A stretch of 64,000 nucleotides of DNA, from assembly GCF_900182935.1 (NCBI RefSeq), contig NZ_FXUE01000001.1, positions 682,001 to 746,000 on the forward strand, given 5' to 3'. Position 1 is the stretch's first letter; every line of letters begins with the position of its first letter. The notes below the pieces were generated by a model. It had not been told where the DNA came from, did no database searches, and saw only the letters and a list, made by a program, of their open reading frames with translations. Both the position numbers and the translations under genes were made by a program. Positions 34,989 through 50,300 of the stretch are shown here, one piece after another. The DNA comes from Fibrobacter sp. UWB10. GTDB lineage: Bacteria; Fibrobacterota; Fibrobacteria; Fibrobacterales; Fibrobacteraceae.

Positions 34989-36524
34989 TTACTCTTCTTT
35001 TTTCGGGGGAATGTAAGGCTTACCATCCCTATTGGTTTTAACCGCCACTATTAAATAAATCTCCTGTCCTACTGCATCCGCCCCCTCTCCCAAAGTGAAA
35101 CGGACTTTGTACCCCAAATGCATATCACCATTTCCAAAGAGTAGGGTATCCATCCAAACCTCATAATGAACACCGGGGTAACGTTCGTCGTCCCATTCAT
35201 CGCCATCCCATACAAGGCCATCTTCAATCAGCCGACGTTGCAACGCTTCCTCGCCTTCGTGATCGTACATTTCGTGATACAATTTTTTGTCCATCAAATA
35301 TTCGCCAGCATTCGTTTCTTCATCATCCCGATACACCCGAGAATCTTCCTTTAAGGTTTCCGGAGTATTTTCTTCTAGAACAAAATGGTAAATCACGTCA
35401 TGAAGTTCCTGCCATTCCTTCGTATGGGCGGGCGTTTCCGAAGACGATTTATCCTTTTCAGGATCATAGAACGCTTCGGCATAAGTTTCTACATATTTTT
35501 CAAAATCCGGAACTTCATCCGTATATTTTGCGACATTCTTGCGAACCTTTTCCAACAGGTCCTTTTCTTTGGCGGAATGAGCCCAATTGGCAATATCGGT
35601 TTTGATTTCGTCATCCCATACGCCAGTCTCCACAAAACTTTCTTTCATATCGTCCACACGATAAATCAAATGCGCATTCTTTTCAAGATCCGTCTGTGCC
35701 GTCAGGAGCACACTCGCCGCCAAAAGTGCTGCGTTGCCATCACCAGGTTTAAGGATATTCAGGTCTACGAAATCACTGACTCCGTCTTTGACGCCAAACG
35801 CAGCCAGAACTTCTTTTTTCGCCTGTTCTTTTGCCTTTACCACAGTCATTCCCTTTTGACTTACAAGATATTTCATGCGTTTGTATTCAAGTTCCGTGAA
35901 TACGTTGATGTTCACGGCATCATGTTCGGTCAGATTCACAAACGCTTCAAGTTCAACCTCCTTCTTTGATTTTTCGCCAGCATGCTCATCCAGGTAATGG
36001 CCTCTAACCCAAATTATAGCACAAGGAGTAGAAAAGCTGATATCTTCGATTTTGTATTCGCCATTGTCGCTTTGTATATCTACACTTCGAGTGAATTCGT
36101 CTACCCATTTCAGAGTATTACAATCAACTTCTGCCATCCAAACCGAACCATCAACGAACGGGCCTTTCTGCGCCACGCCAGTCAAAGTCTTATTCTTGAT
36201 TGCGTATTGTTTTTCTTCGACACTAGAAGAATCTGCTTTTTCGGAGCTTGAAGATTCCACCCTTGTTGTATCAGATGATCCATTATTTTCCGAGCTTGAA
36301 GATTCGATTTTCTCGTTCTTTTCAGAGCTCGAGGACTTCGCCTTTTTATCTTTGCTTGCAACCGAAGACGAAGAAGCACCCTCGTCGCCACCGGATTCCA
36401 CGTCCTCGATATATTCTTCCGAGTCATCCCCGGCAACACTGCTGCTTTCGCTGGAGCAGCCCGTTACCACCAGAGCCATACTGACGGCTGCCAACGCCGT
36501 GATTTTTCCAAGTTTATTTTTCAT
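34989..36524 (-). CDS. QKGPF-family lipoprotein
   Basis: 511 residues, paralogous along its whole length to the gene at 33353. It has lipobox VVTGC, an SSSSE-rich linker with blocks almost identical at DNA level to its neighbour, LTGVAQKGPFVDGSVWMAEVD, VNINVFTELEYKRMKYLV, the helical domain (GNAALLAASVLLTAQ, PDFEKYVETYAEAF), and the C-terminal domain KEWQELHDVIYHFVLEE ... LVWDGDEWDDERYPGVHYEVWMDT. The C-terminal halves have diverged more than the N-terminal ones. GAAGG lies 6 bases before the ATG. It sits 26 bases after the stop of the preceding gene. Confidence 0.8.
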   Translation of the reverse strand: MKNKLGKITALAAVSMALVVTGCSSESSSVAGDDSEEYIEDVESGGDEGASSSSVASKDKKAKSSSSEKNEKIESSSSENNGSSDTTRVESSSSEKADSSSVEEKQYAIKNKTLTGVAQKGPFVDGSVWMAEVDCNTLKWVDEFTRSVDIQSDNGEYKIEDISFSTPCAIIWVRGHYLDEHAGEKSKKEVELEAFVNLTEHDAVNINVFTELEYKRMKYLVSQKGMTVVKAKEQAKKEVLAAFGVKDGVSDFVDLNILKPGDGNAALLAASVLLTAQTDLEKNAHLIYRVDDMKESFVETGVWDDEIKTDIANWAHSAKEKDLLEKVRKNVAKYTDEVPDFEKYVETYAEAFYDPEKDKSSSETPAHTKEWQELHDVIYHFVLEENTPETLKEDSRVYRDDEETNAGEYLMDKKLYHEMYDHEGEEALQRRLIEDGLVWDGDEWDDERYPGVHYEVWMDTLLFGNGDMHLGYKVRFTLGEGADAVGQEIYLIVAVKTNRDGKPYIPPKKEE

Positions 36525-36550: not shown

Positions 36551-37438
36551 TTAATCCTGTTTTGCCCTATACCTTACCGGGATCCATATTGAAACATTTC
36601 CTTCAAGACCCAGAGATTGACAAAAATATCTAACATTGTATGTTGCTTCAATTTCGGCGAAACTCACTGGCCAACTCCAATGCACAAGTATGGAGTCCAA
36701 TTCCGCTTTAAAACGGCATTCCGGTTTATTGAGATTAGTCCAATTAAAGCCTTCCCATAGAATACCATCTTCATAAAGCCTATCCGTCAAATGCTGATCA
36801 TATCCATCATATTGATATTCGGCAACGAATTCGTCTTCAGGCATTCTATATTCATCAAGCCTCGAACTTTTATCGGAACGTTCCACTTTCAAAAATCGAG
36901 ATTCATGCAAATCTTGAATTGAATTATTCTCCACTACGGACGTAACAGAATCTCTGATGATTTCCCATTCCTTTGCATTGTTCAGTTCAACCGGTTCGGG
37001 CTCAGCAGATTCAATCGGTTCGATTTTTTCTTCAGAGTTTGAAGGTTCAGCTTGTTCAGTTTTTTCTTCTGAGGGTTCTGTGGTTTCAGCCGGATCTGTC
37101 TTTTCTTCAGGTTCAGCTTTGTTCGGTTCAGTAGGTTCTTCAGGTGCGGCAACATCGCCAGATTCAGCCGGTTCTTCGGATTCAGCAGGCTTTTCAGATT
37201 CAACGGTTTCTTCGGGACTCGAAGGTTCTTCAGCCTTCGAGGCTTCTTCGGTGTCAGCAGTCTCAACAACTTCTTTTTTCGACGTTTCTTCGGACTTTGA
37301 GGATTCCTCCGTATCGCCCCCGGCAACACTGCTGCTGTCGCTACTAGAACAGCCTGTCACCATTAGAGAGGTGCAGAAGAACATCGTTGAAACAGACAGC
37401 AGACCCGCCCCAAGAACTTCATACCATTTGTTTTTCAT
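36551..37438 (-). CDS. Short lipoprotein paralogue lacking the QKGPF and helical domains
   Basis: 295 residues. The lipobox MVTGC is followed by an unusually long acidic Glu/Pro/Ser/Thr linker (about 35-155, with SEEPAESGD and EPEEKTDPAETTEP type repeats). The remaining about 140 residues (AKEWEIIRDSVTSVVENNS to WEGFNWTNLNKPECRFKAELDSILVHW) correspond to the C-terminal domain of the two downstream paralogues. So the middle modules were lost here or never present. The frame also allows TTG at 37444, but the ATG at 37438 has AAGGAAGG upstream and matches the paralogues' MKNK start. Confidence 0.75.
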   Translation of the reverse strand: MKNKWYEVLGAGLLSVSTMFFCTSLMVTGCSSSDSSSVAGGDTEESSKSEETSKKEVVETADTEEASKAEEPSSPEETVESEKPAESEEPAESGDVAAPEEPTEPNKAEPEEKTDPAETTEPSEEKTEQAEPSNSEEKIEPIESAEPEPVELNNAKEWEIIRDSVTSVVENNSIQDLHESRFLKVERSDKSSRLDEYRMPEDEFVAEYQYDGYDQHLTDRLYEDGILWEGFNWTNLNKPECRFKAELDSILVHWSWPVSFAEIEATYNVRYFCQSLGLEGNVSIWIPVRYRAKQD

Positions 37439-37440
37439 TT

Positions 37441-38421
37441 TCAACCTTCCTTATTGGAGTCTTTATTCAAATGTTTTTCACGATCCTCAGCCCAGTAGTA
37501 GGCTTCCAATTCCATCGTGAACCCGTAACGGATAGTGCGGTTTCCATTTTCGTCCACAAGAACTTCTGTTAACGGATAAGCGATTATTATATAATAAACA
37601 TCATCTGTTTTCGATCTAAATGTATACGTCCTTTTTTTCGCCCCTTCCAATTCCGACGCATCACAATTGACATTTTGATAATCTTCATCCATCACGTCTT
37701 CATAAACGTACTCTGAATTAAAAGTCCTCTTATCAAGATAATCGCGTTTAAACATTTCCAAGCTATCGGCGCCCCAATCATATTCTTCACGCGAAAGAGC
37801 GTAGACTTCAGAAGCCGGAGCGATATCCGTTTGCGATGTATGATGAATTGTCCAACGGACAATAGAACTGTCGTTACTGCATTTCACAAATTTGTGCTTA
37901 TCATTTTCTCCACAGCCTTCCAGGTATTCGAACTCTTCAGGGAAAGGCTTTTCAGAGCAATCGGCAAACCTTTTTTCTGTGTTCGTTTCGGAACTGGAAG
38001 ATTCCACCCTTGTCGTATCAGGGAATCCGTTGTTTTCAGAGCTCGAAGACTCAAAGACTTCAGAGTTGGAAGATTCGGCCGGTTCGGAACTCGTAGGTTC
38101 CACCTTTTCGGAGCTTGAAGATTCCTCGGTTTTCGAGACCTCTTCCGAACTCGAAGAAACCTTCTTTTCAGAACTCGATGACTCGACCTTTTCGCTCTTT
38201 TTAGAGCCAGATTTTTCCGAGCCGGACTTTTCGGAACTGGAAGACACGTCGATTTTCTCGTCGCTATTGGATTCCACGACTTCGGAATATTCTTCCGTAT
38301 CGCCCCCCATTACGCTGCTGTTGTCGCTAGAACAGCCCGTTGCCATCAACGCGACGCTGATATAGGCCGTCGACATCATGAACAGGCCTGCGCTAAAGAT
38401 TTTTCCAAGTTTGTCTTTCAT
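37441..38421 (-). CDS. Lipoprotein with long SSSSE linker, first gene of the operon
   Basis: 326 residues. The lipobox MATGC is followed by about 120 residues of Ser/Glu/Lys repeats (SEKSGSEKSGSKKSEK, SSSSEKVEPTSSEPAESS). The folded part, about 150 residues, starts at FPEEFEYLEGCGEND and ends TIRYGFTMELEAYYWAEDRE. It is the same C-terminal domain as in the lipoproteins at 38669 and 41471. The gene lacks the QKGPF and helical domains. AAGGAAAAA precedes the ATG, and TATATTTG lies 43 bases upstream. The stop codon is 2 bases from the ATG of the next gene, so the four lipoproteins from 38421 to 33353 are probably co-transcribed. Confidence 0.75.
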   Translation of the reverse strand: MKDKLGKIFSAGLFMMSTAYISVALMATGCSSDNSSVMGGDTEEYSEVVESNSDEKIDVSSSSEKSGSEKSGSKKSEKVESSSSEKKVSSSSEEVSKTEESSSSEKVEPTSSEPAESSNSEVFESSSSENNGFPDTTRVESSSSETNTEKRFADCSEKPFPEEFEYLEGCGENDKHKFVKCSNDSSIVRWTIHHTSQTDIAPASEVYALSREEYDWGADSLEMFKRDYLDKRTFNSEYVYEDVMDEDYQNVNCDASELEGAKKRTYTFRSKTDDVYYIIIAYPLTEVLVDENGNRTIRYGFTMELEAYYWAEDREKHLNKDSNKEG

Positions 38422-38464
38422 TTTTTCCTTCTTTGTTGGAGTGTTTTCGCATCCCTCACATCTA

Positions 38465-38472
38465 CAAATATA
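38465..38472 (-). promoter_or_regulatory. TATATTTG promoter element of the four-lipoprotein operon
   Basis: Minus-strand TATATTTG, 43 bases upstream of the ATG at 38421. A proximal GGAACACA (38491-38498) and the conserved string AAAATTAGCGTTTTT follow 18-25 bases further upstream. Confidence 0.6.
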
Positions 38473-38560
38473 GCCTTATTCAACAGATTTGGAACACAAA
38501 ATTAGCGTTTTTCTTTAAATTTTACGCTTTTTAAAGATTTTACTAAAATTTAAGCAAATT

Positions 38561-38589
38561 GGAATACAAGTTGTGTATTCCTAGAACAC
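38561..38589. promoter_or_regulatory. Operator-like inverted repeat GGAATACA-N5-TGTATTCC
   Basis: A perfect 8-base inverted repeat (38561-38568 and 38574-38581) is followed by a degenerate third half-site (GAACACA). It lies 88 bases upstream of the TATATTTG element. The half-site is identical to the one in front of the regulator gene at 40425-41288. Confidence 0.6.
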
Positions 38590-38605
38590 AGCGAAAATCA
38601 CGCCG

Positions 38606-38668: not shown

Positions 38669-40435
38669 TTACTTTGTCACATAAACAGCCGACAGCTCTA
38701 CAACAAACCCATAACGGATTGTCCGTGATCCACTTGGACGCACCAACAATTGCGGCACGGAGAATACGTAGACAAGATACGAAGCGTTCTTCAGATCCAT
38801 GCGGTAAGAATACACAGGTGTCGTTTCGCCAATCTCGCTCAAATCTTCTTCATCGTACGGGTAGTCATACAATTCGTTTCCTAAATCCACTATACTTTCA
38901 TCGTGTTCTTTACCAAATTCGAATCCAGAGCCTCTACCTAGCCACTCCGACCTGAAATGATCCAAGCTATCCGTCGAGTATTGTTCAAACTCCGCCGCAA
39001 AAGTATATGTCCTCGGAACAGAGAATTCCGTTTCGTAAACATCGTGACGCGTTCTCCAAGTCACGACTACGGAATCACCAGGGCAACGCGCTTCTGTAAT
39101 TTCATAGTCATTTCCAAGCAAGTAACTCAGTTCATGGGGGAATTCCGTGTTAGGACATCCCGAGGTATCTTTTTTTGTAACAGAGGAATCTTTCGCCGTA
39201 GTCGAAGTATCCGGCTTTACGGAACTCGTATCACGAACGGAAGAATCTCGTACAGAGGTATCGCGAACGGATGTGTCGCGAACGGACGAATCACGCGGCA
39301 TCACAGAACTCGAAGAGCGCAAGCTATCCTGCAACAGCGAATCACGGATAGAAGAGGAACTAGAAAGCAGGGAATCGCGTACAGAGGAACTCGAAGAAGT
39401 CGAATCAGCCTTTACTTCGCTGCTGCTAGAGGCCGCCGTGCTATCGCGCGAATCTTTGTTCGAAGAAGAGGAATCCACTTTTTCAACCGAGTCCTGCTCG
39501 ACAGAAGAAGAGGAGACTGTTTCTTCAAGCGAATCCCGCTCAGCGGACGAAGAGCTTTCTTCGATGGAGTCAGCGGGTTCTACAACAGGAATGTACTTTT
39601 CGAATGCGGGAATTTCGTCAACGTAATCCAGGCCTTCGATATTCTTGCGGATTGTTTCAAGTTCACCGTTTGCCGAAGCTTCGGTTACCCATTCTGCAAT
39701 AGCCTTTTTCGTTTCAGAGTCTTTCCACTTACCGGTTTCGGCAAAGGAATCGTCAAACTTATCAAGGCGCTTGGCAAGTGCGGCCGCATCAGCGTCGCCC
39801 TGCATCATCACGCTTACAGCCAAGAGCGCGGCATTACCGTCACCCGATTCAAATACATTCAGGTTTTCGAATTCGTCAAATTCGCCCTTGATATCGAAGG
39901 CGGCAAGGACTTCCTTTTCGGCCTGCGTTTTAGCCTTGGCCAGAGCCTTGCTCTTTTCCTTCACAAGGAACATCACGCGTTCGTATTCCAAACTGGTGAG
40001 CACGTTGACGTTCACGTTTTCGCGATCCTTGAGGTTGGTCAGCGCACGGAGAGTCACTTCATCCTTCGTCTTTTTGCCCGTGACTTCGTTCAGGTACTTA
40101 CCCGTGACTTCGATGACCGCGCAAGACGCATCGAGAGCAACGCTATCGAGAGCAAAGTCGCCCTTATCGCTCTTGATTGTTCCTTCAAAAACCTGATCCG
40201 TGAATTCCAGCGTCTTACAATCGACACCGCGAACCGTTACCGCAGAGCCCTTCACGAACGGGCCCTTCTGGGCAACGCCCGCCACATCGGCTACAAAGCC
40301 GGCATCTTCCGAAACGCCGCCTGCGACGCCTTTTTCTTCTTCAGTAGAGCATGCGGCAAGCAACACCGACATACCCATAATTGCAGAAACAACGGCCAAG
40401 CCTTTCTTGGTCGTTCTACGCAAGTTATTCTTCAT
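38669..40435 (-). CDS. QKGPF-family lipoprotein paired with a TIGR02147 regulator
   Basis: 588 residues. The lipobox LLAAC gives Cys29. The QKGPF domain starts early (VAGVAQKGPFVKGSAVTVRG, about 52) and runs to VNVNVLTSLEYERVMFLV. The helical domain (EKEVLAAFDIKGEF, GDGNAALLAVSVMMQ, ETIRKNIEGL, PAFEKYIP) follows. In this protein the Ser-rich linker comes after these domains (about 290-420) and includes tandem SVRDT repeats. The C-terminal domain FPHELSYLLGNDYE to TIRYGFVVELSAVYV matches that of 37441-38421. The ATG lies inside the end of the regulator gene (11-base overlap), with AAGGAG in the regulator's last codons, so translation is coupled. Confidence 0.82.
   Translation of the reverse strand: MKNNLRRTTKKGLAVVSAIMGMSVLLAACSTEEEKGVAGGVSEDAGFVADVAGVAQKGPFVKGSAVTVRGVDCKTLEFTDQVFEGTIKSDKGDFALDSVALDASCAVIEVTGKYLNEVTGKKTKDEVTLRALTNLKDRENVNVNVLTSLEYERVMFLVKEKSKALAKAKTQAEKEVLAAFDIKGEFDEFENLNVFESGDGNAALLAVSVMMQGDADAAALAKRLDKFDDSFAETGKWKDSETKKAIAEWVTEASANGELETIRKNIEGLDYVDEIPAFEKYIPVVEPADSIEESSSSAERDSLEETVSSSSVEQDSVEKVDSSSSNKDSRDSTAASSSSEVKADSTSSSSSVRDSLLSSSSSIRDSLLQDSLRSSSSVMPRDSSVRDTSVRDTSVRDSSVRDTSSVKPDTSTTAKDSSVTKKDTSGCPNTEFPHELSYLLGNDYEITEARCPGDSVVVTWRTRHDVYETEFSVPRTYTFAAEFEQYSTDSLDHFRSEWLGRGSGFEFGKEHDESIVDLGNELYDYPYDEEDLSEIGETTPVYSYRMDLKNASYLVYVFSVPQLLVRPSGSRTIRYGFVVELSAVYVTK
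39231..39290 (-). repeat. Four 15-base tandem repeats encoding SVRDT/S
   Basis: On the plus strand the units begin tcacgaacgg, tctcgtacag, tcgcgaacgg and tcgcgaacgg, each 15 bases long. They encode the pentapeptide repeats in the linker of the lipoprotein at 38669-40435. Their multiple of three would change linker length without a frameshift. Confidence 0.7.
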
Positions 40436-41288
40436 GATCTCCTTCCTTTTCGGGCGTACCCTTGTCGTCTTTCTTTAAACATTCACTCATCGGGAACAGT
40501 TGCAAGTTCAAACGGTACACTTGTTCCGTATCGTCGTCTTCAGTGACAATGGCCATAATGCGGCGACGGCAATCAGCAAGTTCTTTTCTAATGCGTTCGT
40601 AGGCGCGGCGCGTAATTCCCATGGTAAGGCCCGACATGTCGCGTTCCGAAAGCGGCAAGCTCAGCGCCTTGACGGCGAATTCGGCCATCTGGCGTTGCAA
40701 ATCGCGAGCAGCCACCGGCACGGCATCGACAGAGCCCATCGAAATCGCCTTATCCGTCTGGTGGTAATTCCCGTCTTTGTCCTTTTTCAGGAGCTTGGCG
40801 CGCACCAAGAAGTCGAGCGTCTGGGAGACCTCGGCTGCGGTAATCGGTTGCTTGCAGGCTTTGGCCATTTCAAGCGGCTTTGCGCCCGGCATATGCGGTG
40901 CCAATTCACGCAGCACCACATTTTTCCATGATTTAAAATACTTGAACTCTTCATCCCCCAGCACACGTACCTTGTGAGCATTCGCAAGCGCACAGCGTTC
41001 TTCGAACGCGGCTCGTTTTGCCGCATCGCCCTTCGCATGTGCGTATGAAACCATCAGCACAAAGTACGTGTGTTCAAACCCGACCAACCCCATAGCACTC
41101 GCTACGGAACCTGCAGCCCCTACGCTCAGGTTTTTCTTCCCCTCGCAGACATACTTCAGATAAACCGCCGACGAAAACCCTGCGTCGCGCGCAAAATCTC
41201 GCCAGGTAAACGCAGAAGTACGCTTACGTTCATCGTAGTAGTCCTGGATGAACTTGCGGTAATCTGTGTATTCTACTATCTCCTTCAT
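40425..41288 (-). CDS. TIGR02147 / DUF4423 family transcriptional regulator
   Basis: 287 residues. The N-terminus MKEIVEYTDYRKFIQDYYDERK is the family hallmark. TWRDFARDAGFSSAVYLKYVCEGKKNLSVGAAGSVASAMGL (about 24-66) looks like a helix-turn-helix. The remaining DUF4423 region (YFKSWKNVVLRELAPHMPGAKPLEMAKAC, LDFLVRAKLLKKDKDGNYHQTD) resembles a winged-helix plus sensor part. The family was defined on paralogues in Fibrobacter succinogenes and is predicted to regulate transcription. TATATTTG ends 5 bases before the ATG and there is no Shine-Dalgarno sequence. The 3' end overlaps the lipoprotein gene. The inverted repeat upstream suggests autoregulation. Confidence 0.9.
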   Translation of the reverse strand: MKEIVEYTDYRKFIQDYYDERKRTSAFTWRDFARDAGFSSAVYLKYVCEGKKNLSVGAAGSVASAMGLVGFEHTYFVLMVSYAHAKGDAAKRAAFEERCALANAHKVRVLGDEEFKYFKSWKNVVLRELAPHMPGAKPLEMAKACKQPITAAEVSQTLDFLVRAKLLKKDKDGNYHQTDKAISMGSVDAVPVAARDLQRQMAEFAVKALSLPLSERDMSGLTMGITRRAYERIRKELADCRRRIMAIVTEDDDTEQVYRLNLQLFPMSECLKKDDKGTPEKEGDHEE

Positions 41289-41293
41289 GAGTA

Positions 41294-41301
41294 CAAATAT
41301 A
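41294..41301 (-). promoter_or_regulatory. TATATTTG promoter element of the regulator at 40425
   Basis: Minus-strand TATATTTG followed by TACTC and the ATG; a leaderless or nearly leaderless mRNA is implied. Confidence 0.6.
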
Positions 41302-41390
41302 GACTAATTTCATTGTTTTGGGATACAAATATGTCATTTTCGCAAAAATTTTACTATTTCCTCGAATTTTTCAAAATTTCAGCATTTTTG

Positions 41391-41418
41391 GGAATACAAC
41401 CTGTATTCCAGGAATACA
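41391..41418. promoter_or_regulatory. Operator-like triple site GGAATACA / TGTATTCC / GGAATACA
   Basis: GGAATACA (41391-41398) and TGTATTCC (41402-41409) form a perfect inverted repeat with a 3-base spacer. A further exact GGAATACA follows after 1 base (41411-41418). The group lies 89 bases upstream of the TATATTTG element. A half-site GGATACA is also found close to the promoter at 41321-41327. Confidence 0.65.
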
Positions 41419-41443
41419 AAAAGAACCCGCCATTACTGGCGGG
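41416..41443 (-). terminator. Intrinsic terminator of the lipoprotein gene at 41471
   Basis: CCCGCCA-ttac-TGGCGGG stem followed on the minus strand by TTCTTTTTG. It touches the operator-like site of the next unit. Confidence 0.85.
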
Positions 41444-41470
41444 CCCCTTCTCTCTCCTCCTAGCGATAAT

Positions 41471-43432
41471 TTATTCGGTTTTTCCTTTGCTTTCCGGCTT
41501 CTGCTTATAGTAAACATTGACATCTACGGTATAGCCATACTTAAACGTATACGTCACTCCAAAAAACGGATAACCGATAGTCCCTACCTCGGCTTCAAGC
41601 ACAAACTTCGCCGCAGGCGTTTCCATTTCGTAAAAATAGCGAACAACAACCGGATTGCTCATATTGGAATTCTTCCCCAACGAATCCGACTTCACAAACG
41701 TGAAACCGTTATCGGGCAAGGCTTCCAGAAACGGTTCAAACGCCTCCTCGGCAGCCTTTTCTTTTGCCAGTTCAGGAAGGAACTGGTACTGCTGCGATTT
41801 TGTCGAATCGACGTTCCGACGGAACTGCCACCTAATCATAAGAGAATCGTCATCATAATCTGCACGGACCTTCGTCGAGGAATATTCTTCCATAAAGGCA
41901 AGTTCTTCCGGGAAATCCTTAAAGAAGCGTATCGAGCTATAATCGGTCGTCGGCATTTCCTCGAAGCCATCTTTCAGTACCACGACCTTCACCTTGAAGA
42001 AATAGCTGGAGCCATACATAATGCCCATACCTAATTCTTTCGTAATGGAAATCTTGTAGACAACGTTTCCTTTTTTCAACGAATAGACATACGACAGCGT
42101 ATCGCACCTCACGTCATCTAAGGAATCATTATTTATGGTGCCTTCAAAAGCGAATCCACGCGTCCCCATCAGATTTACCAACGCACTCGCGATGGAATCT
42201 CGTCTTTCACGGTCGTTAACCAGTCGTCCCGGGGAGGTGAGGAACCACACTTCCTGCTTGCCTTCGCCAAAACTTCTATAACCGTCGAACGAATATGTCG
42301 AATCGAAGAAGTCTAGTTCCGCAGGAAGAGGCGGAATCGCATCTTCGGGTTCACTCGAAGAAGAACTGACAAACGGATCATAAATAGAACTCAACGGCAT
42401 TTCCGACGAAGAGCTTTCCGAATCATCTTCAACCGACGAGCTGGACAGCGGTTCCACACCCGGAATATGCCAGCGGCCCTTTTCGCACACGAAGTATTCG
42501 TTGTACAGATTGCTGAGCTTGTTTATGTTGCGTTTGGTTTCGTTTTCACGTTTGTCGTTACAGACGCCGAGGCCATAATTATTCCACCAGAAGTTCGTGA
42601 CGTACTTTTCGAACGCAGGCACGGTATCGGCGTATTTCCAATCTTCCACATTCTTGCGCACCGTCGAAAGCGAGCCCTTTAAATCTACATCGCAAGCCCA
42701 GTCCGCAATCGCGGTCTTGGTGTCGGCATCGTCCCAGCTGCCGCCTTCAGCAAGCGAAATGCTGAATTCGCCGATGCGTTCGGTAAGGCCGGCCACATCG
42801 GCATCGCCTTGCATCAACACGCTTACCGCAAGGAGCGCCGCATTGCCATCGCCCGACTCAAAGATGTTCAAGTCTTCGGATTCGCCAAAATCGCCCTCGA
42901 TTGCAAACGAAGCAAGCACTTCTTCTTCGGCTTGAGCCTTCGCATCAGCAATCGACATTTTCTTCTTGTTGACCAAGTACATCACGCGTTCGTATTCCAG
43001 ATGCGTGAGCAAGTTGATGTTTACCGTCTTGCGGTTAGAAAGGTCGGTTAGCGCTCGGAGCGTCACCATGCCCGAAGACTTCTTGCCAGAAATTTCGTCG
43101 CGGTAGTAGCCTGATGCTTCAAGGATTGCATACTGCGATCCCAAATTAATATCCTTGATGGCAAAGTCGCCCTTATCGCTCTTGATAGAGCCCTTGAAGC
43201 TCTTGCCCGTCTGCTTGAGCGTAACGCCGTCTAGTTCCTGCACGGTCACTGCAGAACCCGTCACGAACGGGCCCTTCTGCGAAACGCCAGCTACTTCCCA
43301 GTCTACGACAGCGGTAACGCCAGCATCGCCCGAAGCGCCGCCACCGAGATCCATACTATCGGAATCGCCACCGGAACAGGCCCAGAACACGGCCCCCAGC
43401 GCGAGACACCCTATAATTTGTTTTCTCCTCAT
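41471..43432 (-). CDS. QKGPF-family lipoprotein with duplicated C-terminal domain
   Basis: 653 residues. The start MRRKQIIGCLALGAVFWAC (lipobox FWAC, Cys19) has AAGGA 7 bases upstream; two in-frame ATGs further upstream lack this. The QKGPF domain (GVSQKGPFVTGSAVTVQELDG to VNINLLTHLEYERVMYLV) and helical domain (AEEEVLASFAIEGDF, GDGNAALLAVSVLMQ, PAFEKYVTNFW) are followed by a short cysteine-containing segment and an SSSS linker. Two copies of the C-terminal domain then appear: PPLPAELDFFDSTYSFDGY and DFPEELAFMEEYSSTKVRA each start one. The regulator gene ends 26 bases upstream. Probably an envelope lipoprotein of unknown role. Confidence 0.8.
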   Translation of the reverse strand: MRRKQIIGCLALGAVFWACSGGDSDSMDLGGGASGDAGVTAVVDWEVAGVSQKGPFVTGSAVTVQELDGVTLKQTGKSFKGSIKSDKGDFAIKDINLGSQYAILEASGYYRDEISGKKSSGMVTLRALTDLSNRKTVNINLLTHLEYERVMYLVNKKKMSIADAKAQAEEEVLASFAIEGDFGESEDLNIFESGDGNAALLAVSVLMQGDADVAGLTERIGEFSISLAEGGSWDDADTKTAIADWACDVDLKGSLSTVRKNVEDWKYADTVPAFEKYVTNFWWNNYGLGVCNDKRENETKRNINKLSNLYNEYFVCEKGRWHIPGVEPLSSSSVEDDSESSSSEMPLSSIYDPFVSSSSSEPEDAIPPLPAELDFFDSTYSFDGYRSFGEGKQEVWFLTSPGRLVNDRERRDSIASALVNLMGTRGFAFEGTINNDSLDDVRCDTLSYVYSLKKGNVVYKISITKELGMGIMYGSSYFFKVKVVVLKDGFEEMPTTDYSSIRFFKDFPEELAFMEEYSSTKVRADYDDDSLMIRWQFRRNVDSTKSQQYQFLPELAKEKAAEEAFEPFLEALPDNGFTFVKSDSLGKNSNMSNPVVVRYFYEMETPAAKFVLEAEVGTIGYPFFGVTYTFKYGYTVDVNVYYKQKPESKGKTE

Positions 43433-43458
43433 AATCCATTCCTTGTTCATTAATTTTC

Positions 43459-44316
43459 TCATTTTCTCTGCCCCTTTTTTAAAACTGTTTCCTTTTCGGT
43501 TTTCAAATGTTCACTCAACGGGAACAACTGCACGTTCAGGCGGTAGACCTGTTCCGTTTCGTCTTCCTCCGTCGCAATCGCCACCACGCGGCGGTAATAA
43601 TCTTCTGTCTCTTTTTTGATGCGTTCGTACGCACGACGCGTTAGTCCAAGCGTATAACCCGACATGACGCGTTCTGAAATCGGCAAGTCAATTGCCTTGA
43701 TGGCAAATTCACCCATCTGGCGCTGCAAATCGCGAGCGGCCAACGGCACAGCCTCCACCGGCGCCATTTTAATCGTCTTGTCCGTCTGTCGGTAATTTCC
43801 GTTCTTATCCTTTTTCAAAAGGTTCGCCTTCACCAAAAAATCGAGCGTTTCAGAAACTTCTGCAGCCGAAATCTTTTGTTTGCAGGCATGAGCAATCTCA
43901 AGCGGTTTTGCACCAGGCATGTGCGGCGCCAATTCGCGGATTACGGAATTTTTCCACGACTTAAAATACTTGAATTCTTCGTCCCCCAGCACACGCACCT
44001 TGTGAGCATTCGCCAGCGCGCAACGTTCTTCGAACGCAGCCTTTTTAGCTTCGTTGCTCTTTGCATGCGCATAAGAAACCATCAAGACAAAATAGTCATA
44101 CTCAAAGCCGACAAGGCCCATGGCATTCGCCACCGAGCCCGCCGACCCGACACTCAGATTCTTTTTCCCTTCGCAGACGTACTTCAAGTAGACATCTGAC
44201 GAAAAGCCCGCCTTCTGGGCGAAAGCGTGCCACGAAAAAGCGGAGCAGCGTTTGCGCTCATCGTAGTAGTCCTGAATGAACTTACGATAATCCGTGTATT
44301 CTATGATCTCCTTCAT
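43459..44316 (-). CDS. TIGR02147 / DUF4423 family transcriptional regulator
   Basis: 285 residues and a close paralogue of the regulator at 40425, with the same MKEIIEYTDYRKFIQDYYDERK start, helix-turn-helix-like region (FAQKAGFSSDVYLKYVCEGKKNLS) and KSWKNSVIRELAPHMPGAKPLEIA block. Most differences lie in the HTH region and in the C-terminal third, as expected if paralogues recognise different operators and signals. TATATTTG, TAGTC and ATG follow each other directly, again without a Shine-Dalgarno sequence. The lipoprotein gene starts 26 bases after the stop. Confidence 0.9.
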   Translation of the reverse strand: MKEIIEYTDYRKFIQDYYDERKRCSAFSWHAFAQKAGFSSDVYLKYVCEGKKNLSVGSAGSVANAMGLVGFEYDYFVLMVSYAHAKSNEAKKAAFEERCALANAHKVRVLGDEEFKYFKSWKNSVIRELAPHMPGAKPLEIAHACKQKISAAEVSETLDFLVKANLLKKDKNGNYRQTDKTIKMAPVEAVPLAARDLQRQMGEFAIKAIDLPISERVMSGYTLGLTRRAYERIKKETEDYYRRVVAIATEEDETEQVYRLNVQLFPLSEHLKTEKETVLKKGQRK

Positions 44317-44321
44317 GACTA

Positions 44322-44329
44322 CAAATATA
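44322..44329 (-). promoter_or_regulatory. TATATTTG promoter element of the regulator at 43459
   Basis: Minus-strand TATATTTG ends 5 bases before the ATG. The string GAACATAAAATTAGCGTTTTT starts 19 bases further upstream. Confidence 0.6.
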
Positions 44330-44419
44330 GATTCATTTGGTTTAAATAGAACATAAAATTAGCGTTTTTAGCCAAATTTTACCAATTTCTATTAAATTCA
44401 CAAAAATTAAGTGTTTTTA

Positions 44420-44448
44420 GAACATGATTTCATATTCTAGGAACATGA
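44420..44448. promoter_or_regulatory. Operator-like repeat GAACATGA-tt-TCATATTC plus GAACATGA
   Basis: An inverted repeat with one mismatch (44420-44427 and 44430-44437) is followed by an exact third copy GAACATGA (44441-44448). It lies 90 bases upstream of the TATATTTG element, the same layout as at 41391 but with a different half-site word. Confidence 0.55.
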
Positions 44449-44470
44449 TTACGATAAAGCCAAACGGTCA

Positions 44471-44499
44471 GAAAAGGCCTCGCTAGCATCCTAGCGAGG
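44471..44499 (-). terminator. Intrinsic terminator of the lipoprotein gene at 44581
   Basis: CCTCGCTAG-catc-CTAGCGAGG perfect 9-base stem followed on the minus strand by CCTTTTC. Confidence 0.75.
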
Positions 44500-44515
44500 T
44501 CTCCTTTCCTAACCA

Positions 44516-44554
44516 TCCCCCAGCCCGAATCCTTCGGGTCCAAATTTTGGGGGA
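44516..44554. other. Nested hairpin between terminator and lipoprotein gene
   Basis: TCCCCCA pairs with TGGGGGA at the ends and CCCGAA-tcc-TTCGGG pairs inside. It lies in the 3' untranslated region of the lipoprotein at 44581 and could stabilise the mRNA or assist termination. Confidence 0.4.
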
Positions 44555-44580
44555 TTCAAATGTATTTTACTTTGTCTGTC

Positions 44581-46320
44581 TTAGTTCTTGACGCAACGCA
44601 CGCGGGCTTCTTTTAGCGGTTCGTATTCAACGCTATAACCACGAACAGATACTTGCACGTAAAAGTCACCAGCCAACTTCGGAAGAAGATAACTTTCAAT
44701 TTCTTCACGTTCTTCTTCATCATCAGTTAGTTCAAGAACAAGTTGCAAGAAAGCAATTTCGTCTTCATCCGGCACACTTATATGGTAAGAACCCGGTTTG
44801 TAAGAATGGTATTGGGCATGCAAATATACCGTATCCATCGGCATAAGGTTAAAATCAAACCTGTTGTAGAACACGCCGATCAAATCCTTTCCATAGGCCG
44901 CATCCAAATTAGAAGTTCTCCAATTTTCATTAAGCAGGTTTTTAACATCACCAACATAATCCACCAAGATATTCCATTCCCCGGGACTCGAGACATGCCA
45001 GCCATCGGGACAGATTCCCTGGTGTGTTTCACCAATCAAACTATCTTCAGCAGCTTCCGTCATGTACTTGTCATCGATTTGCATGGCTTCCGTCCAAGTA
45101 TAGAGTCCTTCGGAATCATACTTGAGATCTTCAGCCATCCATTCATACTTTTTCCCTTCGTATTCAAAGCTGATTGTCTGGTACTTATGTCCATCGCGCG
45201 GGTCAGTCATATTTCCCGTTTTGTGGTCAATTGGTATCTTGAGAGAATCGATATGTTCTTTTGTCGTCAAGTCCCAATAATACCCATTGCAAAGGAAGTA
45301 ACCCGATTCAATCAGTTCGCCTTCAAGTACCATGGCCTTATCGAACTTTCTGTATTCGCCCCAAAGGTCGGCAGTACAGAGTTCAAGATCCATATAATTC
45401 AAAAACAACAGGATGCCGAAATCGTATTCACTTTTCGAAAAACGCATACTAATCGCATCTGGATTAGCCTCGTCCTTTTTCTTGATATCGTCTTCACCAA
45501 CACCCTGCATTTTGCTCAATTTCCTTGCAGAGCTATAGCCCTCTCCGGCGAGATCCTGCATAATCGAATCAGCGAGAACACCATCATCGGCAAAATCATT
45601 GGCAAACCCATCGATGTAATCTTGCAATTTGGAGCAATCAATATCGTCATCAGCATTATACCAATCGCGCCAAGAATTCCATTCAGGCTGTTCATCGATA
45701 ATTCGGCTGATATTGTACAGAGTTCTGTCACCATCCGAAGAATTGTAGATATTCAAGTCTTCAGCAGAAGAAACATCGATCTTGACGCCGAACGCACCAA
45801 AAACTTCCTTTGCAGCTTGTTTTTTGGCTTCGGCAAAGGTCTTGCCCTCCTTGACCAAATTCAGCACACGCTTGAATTCAAAATGAGTCAAGAGGTTAAT
45901 GTTTACGGTTTCGCGTTTTTCCAAATTGGAAACAGCATCAAGGCGCATCGGGCAGCTAGAAACTTCACCCGTGTATTCTCGCTCGTAGTATCCTTCTGCG
46001 GAAAGAAGCGCATATTGGCTTTCCAAATCGATACCGTCAAACTTGAAATCGCCATCATCATTGGTTGTCTTGGTTGTAAATTCTCTGCCTGTGGGCTCAA
46101 GGCTTCCATCTGCCGACGTTTCTCTAAGGACAACATCCGAACCCTTCACGAAAGGCCCCTTCTGCACAGAACCACCAACTTTCTTACTAGCGAGCGCGAC
46201 AATGCCTTCGCTCTCTTCGCTGGTGCCTGCCGTTTCTGTGGAGCAGGCCGTCATCATCGCACCGAGCGCAAATGCCGTCCCAAGCCATTTTTTCACATTC
46301 AAATTACATTGTTCAAACAT
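44581..46320 (-). CDS. QKGPF-family lipoprotein with C-terminal FISUMP domain
   Basis: 579 residues. The lipobox MTAC gives Cys26. The QKGPF domain is VGGSVQKGPFVKGSDVVLRE to VNINLLTHFEFKRVLNLV. The helical domain is present at its start (AAKEVFGAFGVKIDVSSAEDLNIY) but has diverged further on. From MTDPRDGHKYQTISFEYEGKKYEWMAEDL to EARVRCVKN it is a FISUMP (TIGR02145) domain, replacing the C-terminal domain of its paralogues. It starts 2 bases after the stop of the regulator gene, with GGAG 7 bases before the ATG located in the regulator's last codons, so translation is probably coupled. Confidence 0.85.
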   Translation of the reverse strand: MFEQCNLNVKKWLGTAFALGAMMTACSTETAGTSEESEGIVALASKKVGGSVQKGPFVKGSDVVLRETSADGSLEPTGREFTTKTTNDDGDFKFDGIDLESQYALLSAEGYYEREYTGEVSSCPMRLDAVSNLEKRETVNINLLTHFEFKRVLNLVKEGKTFAEAKKQAAKEVFGAFGVKIDVSSAEDLNIYNSSDGDRTLYNISRIIDEQPEWNSWRDWYNADDDIDCSKLQDYIDGFANDFADDGVLADSIMQDLAGEGYSSARKLSKMQGVGEDDIKKKDEANPDAISMRFSKSEYDFGILLFLNYMDLELCTADLWGEYRKFDKAMVLEGELIESGYFLCNGYYWDLTTKEHIDSLKIPIDHKTGNMTDPRDGHKYQTISFEYEGKKYEWMAEDLKYDSEGLYTWTEAMQIDDKYMTEAAEDSLIGETHQGICPDGWHVSSPGEWNILVDYVGDVKNLLNENWRTSNLDAAYGKDLIGVFYNRFDFNLMPMDTVYLHAQYHSYKPGSYHISVPDEDEIAFLQLVLELTDDEEEREEIESYLLPKLAGDFYVQVSVRGYSVEYEPLKEARVRCVKN

Positions 46321-46322
46321 CT

Positions 46323-47174
46323 TTAAACTCCTTTACCCGATGTGGACTTGCCACGATTAATATTATCTGTCAGAGGGAAAAACTGGAAATTAAGTCTGCA
46401 CACTTTATCCGGGCGGCGTTCTTCAGCCACCATCGAAATAATGTGCTTGCGGAATTCCGCAATTTCGTCGACAACCTTTTGGTAAGTTTCCTGCGTTACA
46501 CCCATGGTGATACCGCTAAAGTGGCGTTCTGAGATTGGCAACTTATCAAGCGCTTCAAGCGCAAATTCGCCCATCTGGCGCAACAGCGAATGTACCGCAA
46601 CAGCAACCACATTCAGGCGCCCCGTACTAAGCGAATGGTTTGTCTGCTGGTAATTGCCTTTCACGTCACGAGAAAGCAGTCCTGATTTCAAGAGGAAACT
46701 CAGACTCGCGCTCACATCGGCCGCCGAAATCGGGAACTTGCAAGCCTTAGCGATTTCAAGCGGTTTTGCACCCGGCATCGCGACAGCTAATTCACGCACC
46801 ACGGAATGCTTCCATGTTTCGTAGAATGTGTACAGGTCACTCCCGAGAATCTTTACATGGTGCGCGGTACTTAGCGCCTGCATTTCTTCGAAACATTTCT
46901 TTTTCTGAATGTCCGATTTCGCATTTTCATAGCGGACCATCAAAATAAAATAGTCGTATTCAAAGCCGAGCATGCCCATGGCAAGTGCAGCTTTCTTGGC
47001 ACCTTCTTCTACCAAGCGGGTTTTGCCATCGCAAACCAACTTTAAATACGACCCCGAAGCAAAGCCAGCAAGCCTTGCAAATTCGCGCCACGTAAATGCA
47101 GAACAACGTTTCCGTTCGGTGTAGTAGTCCTGAATGTACTGGCGATAGTCTTTGTATTCAATAATCGACTTCAT
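46323..47174 (-). CDS. TIGR02147 / DUF4423 family transcriptional regulator
   Basis: 283 residues, the most divergent of the three paralogues: MKSIIEYKDYRQYIQDYYTERK, then the HTH-like FARLAGFASGSYLKLVCDGKTRL, then ETWKHSVVRELAVAMPGAKPLEIAKAC. The start at 47174 aligns with the other regulators. An ATG three codons upstream (47183) overlaps the presumed promoter element TATTTTAT. The lipoprotein gene begins 2 bases after the stop. Confidence 0.9.
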   Translation of the reverse strand: MKSIIEYKDYRQYIQDYYTERKRCSAFTWREFARLAGFASGSYLKLVCDGKTRLVEEGAKKAALAMGMLGFEYDYFILMVRYENAKSDIQKKKCFEEMQALSTAHHVKILGSDLYTFYETWKHSVVRELAVAMPGAKPLEIAKACKFPISAADVSASLSFLLKSGLLSRDVKGNYQQTNHSLSTGRLNVVAVAVHSLLRQMGEFALEALDKLPISERHFSGITMGVTQETYQKVVDEIAEFRKHIISMVAEERRPDKVCRLNFQFFPLTDNINRGKSTSGKGV

Positions 47175-47181
47175 AACAATC

Positions 47182-47189
47182 ATAAAATA
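47182..47189 (-). promoter_or_regulatory. TATTTTAT promoter element of the regulator at 46323
   Basis: Minus-strand TATTTTAT lies 7 bases before the ATG at 47174. It is a weaker match to TAnnTTTG than in the two paralogous units. Confidence 0.4.
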
Positions 47190-47279
47190 GATTATTACTT
47201 CGGCTCATGCAATATTTTATAAAAAACAAAATTGCCGTTTTTAATCAAATTTAAGCACTTTTTATTTCACAGCAAAGAA

Positions 47280-47302
47280 ATTTTGATTTCATAAAACAAA
47301 AT
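47280..47302. promoter_or_regulatory. Inverted repeat ATTTTG-N11-CAAAAT upstream of third regulator
   Basis: It lies 90 bases upstream of the TATTTTAT element, the same distance as the operator-like repeats of the paralogous units. The low complexity makes this the least secure of the four sites. A proximal AACAAAATTGCCGTTTTT resembles the AAAATTAGCGTTTTT string of the others. Confidence 0.35.
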
Positions 47303-47374: not shown

Positions 47375-50300
47375 TTATTTCTTGAGCAACAGGGCCCTGT
47401 CTGTCACGCGGCCGTTCACCTGCAGCACGCCGATATAGCGCCCGTGAGCGATTCCCTCGGCAGCGACCGTTTCGGAATATTCACCTGCAGCGCGCTTGCC
47501 AAGATCAAAGGCCTTCACGATACGGCCCTGCATATCCATAAGCGAGAACTTCACCGCCCCCGCATCAGGAATCACGAAACGGAGAGCCACATGACCATCG
47601 CGGAACGCGGCGCCGAGAGAATGCGTCACTACGATTTCGCGAGCGCGAACACCCGTTGTTTTATTAATATTGACTTCGGCCTTGGCAAATTTGCTCCAGA
47701 GGGTATCTCCCTCGACAGCGACACCAACGCGGAAATCGACAACATACTCACCACCAGCATTCTTGCCCAGTCTTTCAAGTGAATCAAGCAGAGCCTTGCT
47801 AGCGGATTCAACTTCAATCACCAAAGCATACGAAGTGTCCGCCACAATCGCCTTGTCGAGCAACTGTCCAACAACATGTTCTGCAGTGGCACCACCCTTA
47901 CCATAATTCAGACTAACTTTCCCCACATTCGGAACATTGGGCATTCCCCGCAGCAACGGATAGCTCTCGCCATCCTTGATATACCAGACAGAATCGAAGT
48001 CGAAACCCTTGAAGGTAGCCTTTTTGCGCAAGTCCGCACTGCTCACGTCGTTACCCACCCACGCGGATTCCGTGACGGCGCAGGAATCGCTATTGTAGTA
48101 GAAGGCAACCCCGCCACCATCGCTTTTTCGAGTCGAGCAATGGCGAGATCCGTCATACTCCTCAAAATATCCCGTGGCATAGTCATAATCCACCTTGCCT
48201 TCGTTATACCCGACAAAGGAGCCTATCTCCAGCATATTCGAAGCCGTTGCAGACGAATCTCCAAGGTATTTGACGCGGCGCTTCAAATTACCCGTAGAAT
48301 AGGAATTGTTTATGGCACCCTTGTTGTTCCCGGCAAATGCGCCTGCATGGTTAAAGCGGCCCTTGATATCGCCCGTAGCAAAGCACATATCGATGATTCC
48401 ATGCGTGTTGTTGACCGAAGCGAAACCACCGACATAGAACAGGCTGATGTTGTTGAGCTTTCCTGCCCAATCGATATTTTCATTTTCAGTCTCCTCGAAT
48501 ATATCGCCTGTAGCAAAACTCCGCCTAATGGTACCGTCGTTCCTGAAGACGAATCCGCCGGCGCCATCCCTGGAAACGCGAATGGAGCCCGTCGCATAGC
48601 AACGTTCAATCACACCGGGAAGTTCGTTGTTATTTACAAAGCCCGCATCCCCATTTTCAATATCAATCGTAGTGTAACTGTCCGTAATGGTGCCACCGTT
48701 GCTTACCGCAAACCCAGCAACATACCAACCAGAAGAAGACTTTAGTGAACCCGTTGCATAGCATTTGCTTATAGTGCCCGTATTGTAATTGACAAATCCC
48801 GCTCCTTCTGTTTTCGATTCTATAACAACAGACGAGTGGCAATTCTCTATAACCGCATTGTTGTTGTTCACACGGACAAATCCCTCCCCGTCTTCAATGT
48901 GGACTGTTGTGTAGCAATCGCGGATTACGCCACTATTGTCACCGACCAGCCCCGCACCGTTAACAATCTTTCCCGATGCATTGCTATTGGTGATTGTGCC
49001 CCTGTTCACGCCGATCAGCCCGGCGCCATATTCGACAGAGGCTGTCGAATAGCAGCTGTCTACATCTGCGCTAGTCAAGCCAACAAGCCCACCGACAGCA
49101 GCCCCACTGTAAGCATCTATGCTCTCGCCAGTTCCCTTGACATTCCCGGTCGCATACGACTTGGAAATATTCCTGCTGGTCATGCCGAAAAGTCCGCCCA
49201 CATAACGTCTGCCGGTTACATCCATCGCTGTATGGAGCGAGGCAAAGTCCTTTTTGCCATCGGCTTCGCCAATAAATCCACCGACATAGTCGAGGCCCTT
49301 CACGGTTCCCGACACTTCAAATTTTTCGGCAATTCCGTCGTCCTTTCCGATAAGGCCACCCACATAAGATCCTGAAGTTTCAATGCCCGTCGTAACAGAG
49401 CAGGCCGATACGGTGCCGCGGTTAAAGCCAGCGATGCCGCCTACATAAGATCCCGTAGATTCAATATTCACCGAAACGGTACATGCCGATACAACACCTT
49501 CGTTTTTCGCCACAATGCCGCCAGCATAGTCTGCGCCCAAATGAAGGTCTCCATTTAACCTTGAGCTTTCGATTGTTCCTTTGTTTTCATACGCAATTCC
49601 AGCTCCGCCATGAAGTGCGCCCCTAAGAGTCAAATTGCCCTGAGCGCCCTTTATGGTGCCGTTATTTTCCCTTACAAAGCCCGCTAAAATACACGTGTAG
49701 ATATCCTTCTTGCTGCCTGAATAGACCAATCCCGTATACGATGCATTTTCAATAACGCCGTTATTAATTTCTACGAGACCAGCCCCATAGTCAGACGCCT
49801 CGACACTGCCGAAGACCGACACATTCTTGATGGTTCCCTCATTTGTAGAAGCGATAGCAGCTGCATGAGACGTCCCATGAGATTCAAATTCCTTAAAAGT
49901 CAAACTATCGATAACGCCGGTACTGCCAATCGAATCAATAAAGCTAGTTACCTCACTCGTTCGCGTATAAATATACAAGCCCGTAATCGTGTGACCAGCG
50001 CCATGAATTTTACCTGTAAATACATTGCTTGTATCTTGGATATCAAGTCCTTTGACATAGTAACGAATAAGTCCGATGGGCTTAAATCCACTCCTGTAAT
50101 AATCAACCTTTTCGTCTTTAGAGGCAGAGGCGTCAATGTCATTTCCTAACCGGTAAACCGATGAAAGTTTATACTTACCCAAGCCAATCGATTTCAGGTC
50201 ACTATAGGTCTTGATGATGAACGGGTCGCTCTCGGTACCAGAACCGGCAAGGTGCATCATCGTCGAATCCCTGTATTTATCAGGAGTAAACTTTTGATTG

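Follow-up and report, generated by a model that had tools for sequence, protein, structure and literature searches.

We describe here three consecutive gene pairs in a 64,000-nucleotide (nt) stretch of the genome of Fibrobacter sp. UWB10 (contig NZ_FXUE01000001.1, positions 682,001 to 746,000), called the window below, in each of which a gene for a regulator of the TIGR02147/DUF4423 family is followed by a gene for a lipoprotein. On the basis of their sequences, we consider that each pair is quite probably a self-contained, autogenously regulated surface-lipoprotein module. All coordinates are positions in the window, and all three pairs are on the minus strand.

40425..41288, minus strand: regulator 1 (R06), TIGR02147/DUF4423, 287 amino acids (aa)
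38669..40435, minus strand: lipoprotein 1, partner of R06, with a QKGPF module, 588 aa
43459..44316, minus strand: regulator 2 (R05), TIGR02147/DUF4423, 285 aa
41471..43432 (alternative start 43462), minus strand: lipoprotein 2, partner of R05, with a QKGPF module
46323..47174, minus strand: regulator 3 (R19), TIGR02147/DUF4423, start moved from 47183 to 47174
44581..46320, minus strand: lipoprotein 3, partner of R19, with a QKGPF module plus FISUMP

These coordinates agree with a preliminary description of the window, which had reported the three pairs with an 11-base overlap and with spacings of 26 and 2 bases. The genes of pair 1 overlap by 11 nt and those of pair 3 are 2 nt apart, while the gap of 26 nt in pair 2 applies to the lipoprotein ATG at 43432 and becomes an ATGA overlap of 4 with the ATG at 43462. 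The true start of R19 is probably 47174 rather than 47183, because the ATG at 47183 directly abuts the -10 box. The assignment of the regulators to TIGR02147/DUF4423 was also right: all three match TIGR02147 at 284-332 bits against a cut-off of 50, over positions 1-271 of 272, and are thus full-length members of this NCBIfam entry (Fsuc_second) that also match PF14394 (DUF4423), a domain present in 76/76 regulators scanned. Their mutual identity is 52-77%, and the tandem duplication and divergence proposed for the three units is supported, as is the joining of regulator and lipoprotein into a single unit. A lipobox is present in all three lipoproteins, which have in common an N-terminal QKGPF-containing module (34-45% identity) and differ in their C-termini, as had been described; that of lipoprotein 3 is a FISUMP domain, and that of lipoprotein 1 matches the following lipoprotein (37441-38421) by BLASTP. 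The further claim that lipoprotein 2 carries the same domain twice found no significant support by BLASTP. A search of lipoprotein 1 against PDB sequences gave no match.

The pairing is genome- and phylum-wide and is not peculiar to the three-pair array. The UWB10 genome has 28 TIGR02147 genes, and in 27 of these a lipoprotein gene is directly next on the same strand, which is more than chance would give with about 142 candidate lipoproteins in the whole 3.48 Mb (lipoprotein N-terminus profile). The 28th gene (R10; C6:162779-163594; L010, L038) has a lipoprotein gene bearing the motif described below divergently upstream. A second tandem triple of such pairs is found at C1:640509-647310 (L037); its regulators have Shine-Dalgarno sites and promoters of a different kind. 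The family is present in 156/167 Fibrobacterota genomes searched, many of them with tens of copies. We scanned contigs of other genomes with an alignment of six regulators and obtained 80 named loci, including ones from Bdellovibrionales, Oligoflexia, Myxococcales and Raymondbacteria, nearly all with a lipoprotein immediately downstream, and the pairing therefore extends across Fibrobacterota and into Bdellovibrionota and Myxococcota. When 79 loci having enough downstream sequence were judged by a strict lipoprotein rule, 63 passed and the remaining 16 mostly had a lipoprotein-like start that the rule overlooked. Loci departing from the pairing do exist (e.g. L149, L153, L175, L178, L212), and in some others the lipoprotein gene is a few hundred bases off. 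The preliminary description had named a lack of association with lipoproteins elsewhere as what would refute it; the association was found both in this genome and in other phyla. In several genomes (e.g. G121:C5:3446-4279, G127:C36:8159-9004), a single TAG parts the regulator from the next frame, so that read-through frames are 870-980 aa long; this is probably mere in-frame spacing.

The partner lipoproteins align poorly (12% mean column identity), with the lipobox Cys invariant, as in a type II signal peptide with an acylatable Cys. Within about 3-25 residues from this Cys they have a short motif in common, whose form is AGG-[TS]-x-T-x-x-N in Fibrobacterota and GTEtGNP in delta-type bacteria, and whose Asn is more than 90% conserved in the cross-phylum set. 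Since a search with the partners in the training set is circular, the profile for the decisive genome search was trained solely on sequences outside the genus; the top nine lipoproteins of the genome that it retrieved (E<=0.006) all adjoin TIGR02147 genes, and they include the divergent partner of R10, which was present in no training set. Several genomes with TIGR02147 gave matches to the motif profile at 1e-7 to 1e-14, and in the 11 genomes without TIGR02147 the best matches were weak (8.6e-5 or worse) and the readable ones lacked the motif; matches were weak, too, in genomes with just one or two TIGR02147 genes. In genomes G007-G014, G029 and G030, which represent two Fibrobacterota genera, neither TIGR02147 nor strong motif lipoproteins were found. 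The C-terminal modules of the partners include FISUMP, laminin-G/ConA-like, CBM_4_9, pectate lyase and carboxypeptidase-regulatory-like domains, and Fib_succ_major was matched by 4/30 lipoproteins scanned. Judged from their sequences, the hallmark of the partners is the N-terminal motif, and FISUMP is just one among interchangeable C-terminal modules.

Each window pair has its own repeated operator, TGTATTCC in pair 1, ATGTTCT in pair 2 and TGTTTTAT in pair 3, conserved in 27-29 orthologues. The candidate sites, called O1, O2 and O3 in the direction of transcription, and the -10 boxes are as follows.

41402..41418, no strand assigned: R06 operator O1, perfect dyad TGTATTCCTGGAATACA, centre about -122 from the ATG, a single exact copy in the genome
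41391..41399, minus strand: R06 operator O2, TTGTATTCC
41320..41329, minus strand: R06 operator O3, TTTGTATCCC, 71 bp from O2, over the -35 region
41296..41301, minus strand: R06 -10 box TATATT, 7 nt before the ATG, near-leaderless transcript predicted
44431..44447, no strand assigned: R05 operator O1, CATGTTCCTAGAATATG
44418..44426, minus strand: R05 operator O2, CATGTTCTA
44347..44355, minus strand: R05 operator O3, TATGTTCTA, 71 bp from O2
44324..44329, minus strand: R05 -10 box TATATT, 7 nt before the ATG
47291..47300, minus strand: R19 operator O2, TTTGTTTTAT (inside ATTTTGTTTTATGAAATCAAAAT)
47219..47231, minus strand: R19 operator O3, TTTTGTTTTTTAT, 70 bp from O2
47184..47189, minus strand: R19 -10 box TATTTT, 9 nt before the ATG at 47174

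The R05 boxes are of the CATGTTCYNRGAACATG type and those of R19 of the TGTTTTAT type, and the layout is that of the R06 promoter, whose operator blocks hold both sequence and position in 29 orthologous upstream regions. At two loci (L359, L361) where the best match of R05 is an R06-type gene, the operator is of the R06 type, too. To compare operators with regulators, we applied Mantel tests to 17 paralogues of this genome: the O3 boxes covary with the helix-turn-helix (HTH) segment (r=0.28, p=0.004; partial r=0.35, p=0.005) and show no covariation with DUF4423 (r=-0.02, p=0.58). The O3 boxes were picked by hand and the second copies were not; a same-strand second operator copy 69-75 bp upstream was found in 13/17 own comparisons versus 1/160 cross comparisons. 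These specific, conserved operators covarying with the regulator HTH support the earlier proposal that each regulator controls its own lipoprotein. Distant loci show a similar style, with CTGTATCC dyads at L145 and L148 and with TGTATCATTAAA 74 bp apart at L153. Between O2 and O3, an AT-rich block ATGGTAAAATTTGnCTAAAAACGC (41331-41360 and 44361-44390, minus strand) is conserved in the R06 and R05 promoters; it resembles an extended -10 and is a possible second promoter or UP element.

Several points weigh against the proposed autogenous control. The matches that speak for an HTH near the N-terminus of the regulators are weak: HTH_3 was matched by 15 and HTH_31 by 12 of the 76 members (best E 6e-4), and the weak matches of a PDB profile search (E 0.04-0.6) include C.BclI and a CI repressor. 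Apart from the manual choice of the O3 boxes, generic repeat scores are modest, with p<=0.05 at just 13/28 loci here and 21/77 elsewhere, some of the top-scoring repeats resemble terminators, and covariation of the dyad halves inside O1 is just slightly above independence. More divergent regulators (e.g. R01, R07, R27) do not have the same operator architecture.

Terminator-like hairpins stand before each promoter, between the units, and the three window pairs appear to be separate transcription units; one transcript through all three is disfavoured by these hairpins and by the separate promoters. Downstream of pair 1, a complete O1-O2-O3 layout with a -10 box of the R06 type precedes three lipoprotein genes that have no regulator gene.

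38574..38590, no strand assigned: R06-type O1 variant (TGTGTTCTAGGAATACA), before the lipoprotein operon without a regulator gene
38561..38569, minus strand: R06-type O2, TTGTATTCC, of the trailing-operon promoter
38491..38501, minus strand: R06-type O3, TTTTGTGTTCC, of the trailing-operon promoter, with the -10 TATATT at 38467-38472
37441..38421, minus strand: first trailing-operon lipoprotein, 326 aa, motif VMGGDTEE
36551..37444, minus strand: second trailing-operon lipoprotein, 297 aa, motif VAGGDTEE
34989..36524, minus strand: third trailing-operon lipoprotein, 511 aa, QKGPF module, motif VAGDDSEE

This promoter retains TATATT-TGTAG-ATG-TGA at 38459-38472 (minus strand), in which the ATG-TGA appears to be what is left of the start of a former regulator gene. 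Those further near-matches to the R06 operator that were examined, in four regions of the genome, were all inside coding sequence, and an R06 regulon beyond the locus was rejected on this ground. Immediately upstream of pair 3, at 47375-53815 (minus strand), there is a gene for a 2146-aa repetitive secreted protein with GGIVG/GGLVG-type repeats.

Shine-Dalgarno sites are missing before 22/28 regulators of the genome, and in many regulators a -10-like box stands 6-7 nt ahead of the ATG; these two features suggest that the regulator mRNAs are near-leaderless. The lipoproteins mostly have a Shine-Dalgarno site (57/85 with at least 4 matching bases). Among the 85 pairs with a called lipoprotein, the spacing from regulator to lipoprotein is within -48 to +11 nt in 78, and the genes overlap in 57, in 32 of these by exactly 4 nt. 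The preliminary description had taken the pairs to be translationally coupled. In the PvuII C/R system, however, which is the analogue studied best, the two overlapping genes are translated independently; the transcript that depends on C has no leader there, and a clear ribosome-binding site belongs to R (PMC2997769). Overlap by itself therefore does not show coupling, which, common as overlaps are, is no more than a possibility here.

The likeness to this C-protein system of restriction-modification goes further: in both, the gene of an HTH regulator (a putative one here) lies just upstream of, overlaps and is co-directed with an effector gene that has an obvious ribosome-binding site, operator repeats precede the regulator's own promoter, and the leaderless regulator transcript there has a predicted near-leaderless counterpart here (PMC2997769). 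C.BclI, which was among the best of the weak PDB profile matches, is itself a C-protein. Unlike the C-proteins, which are small stand-alone HTH proteins, the regulators have about 285 aa with DUF4423, and the effector is an exported lipoprotein, with no methyltransferase or nuclease. Lipoprotein 3 ends in the same domain as the FISUMP proteins (TIGR02145/Fib_succ_major) of Fibrobacter; unlike these, the partners are defined by their N-terminal motif. No function is assigned to the TIGR02147/DUF4423 family. In the literature searched, which largely excluded subscription journals, TIGR02147 was unmentioned, DUF4423 appeared solely as the uncharacterised Bdellovibrio protein Bd3700, and no description of the lipoprotein pairing, the operators or the motif was found. 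The modules thus appear to form a large family, so far undescribed, in which surface proteins come with their own regulation.

We propose that such a module would work as follows. A cytoplasmic regulator, with an Xre/Cro-CI-like HTH near its N-terminus followed by DUF4423, would bind three private half-sites that precede the promoter of its own gene. Two of them form an inverted pair some 110-130 bp ahead of the start codon, and the third follows after about 71 bp, where it coincides with the -35 box or adjoins it. A membrane-tethered regulator was rejected because no transmembrane-like segment was found in any of the 28 regulators of the genome. The bound regulator would govern the transcription of both genes into one bicistronic mRNA, often a near-leaderless one, on which the lipoprotein reading frame would use its own Shine-Dalgarno site. 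C-proteins activate and then repress their own genes, and lambda CI acts likewise; with these as models, our preference for the sign of the feedback is activation that turns into repression at higher level. The tandem copies would have become insulated from each other as HTH and operator diverged together after duplication. The exported lipoprotein would display a variable C-terminal module (FISUMP, lectin-like, carbohydrate-binding or lyase), probably at the surface, and its role may be in adhesion or polysaccharide handling. The "sensor" half of the earlier label "sensor-or-surface system" is only conjectural.

Other explanations should be weighed against this proposal, and two of them concern the meaning of the motif. 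Lipoprotein sorting signals are known just after the lipidated Cys, and the motif, being at that very position, may mark the lipoproteins for sorting into a dedicated route of export to the outer membrane or the surface, and TIGR02147 would then merely regulate what this route carries; the resemblance of the partner C-termini to surface and polysaccharide-binding domains points in the same direction. Motif lipoproteins without a TIGR02147 neighbour would then be expected, but none was among the best nine of the genome and none among the readable matches in genomes without the regulator, and we regard this explanation as a serious possibility with somewhat less than an even chance. A dedicated route is nevertheless simpler than its alternative, in which the regulator would recognise the precursor of its lipoprotein in the cytoplasm (signal peptide plus post-lipobox motif) and in this way keep track of that lipoprotein's export or maturation, the lipoprotein being both product and signal. 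The confinement of strong motif matches to TIGR02147 partners, and their absence from the 11 genomes without TIGR02147, make such monitoring conceivable; further, what the lipoproteins conserve across phyla is this motif beside the acylated Cys, and a similar motif is retained by the lipoproteins that stand under a pair-1-type operator without a regulator. Because nothing was found that ties the motif directly to the regulator, and the motif may belong to the lipoprotein family or to sorting and have been lost together with the module, we hold this idea only tentatively and think it rather unlikely.

Compact two-gene modules with an HTH partner gene and a high and variable copy number also recall toxin-antitoxin or anti-phage elements. 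A PADLOC search, however, gave a single weak HTH match (E 0.007) and was otherwise negative, on which result this possibility was rejected; the partners are lipoproteins of large size, with several domains and with folds related to carbohydrates, and lipoproteins without a regulator gene have been retained, so that an element of this kind is very improbable. That the two genes are ordinary operonic neighbours, with regulators acting elsewhere and the lipoprotein a passenger, could be argued from the fact that no function of DUF4423 has been tested to date. It is hardly credible in view of the 27/28 pairing kept across phyla, of promoter operators that covary with the regulator HTH, and of the location in coding sequence of the other R06-operator near-matches that were examined.

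With the proposal of autogenously regulated surface-lipoprotein modules, two groups of "unknown function", namely TIGR02147/DUF4423 and an unnamed class of lipoproteins, become one testable system. This system supplies a readable relation between operator and HTH, paralogous regulators that are already insulated from one another, and a motif by which the partners can be told, and it offers a route into the control of surface proteins by these cellulose degraders. If the monitoring of the lipoprotein precursor by the regulator were true, each module would sense how much of its surface lipoprotein is being exported, and the modules would represent an unrecognised class of secretion-coupled regulators across Fibrobacterota, Bdellovibrionota and Myxococcota.

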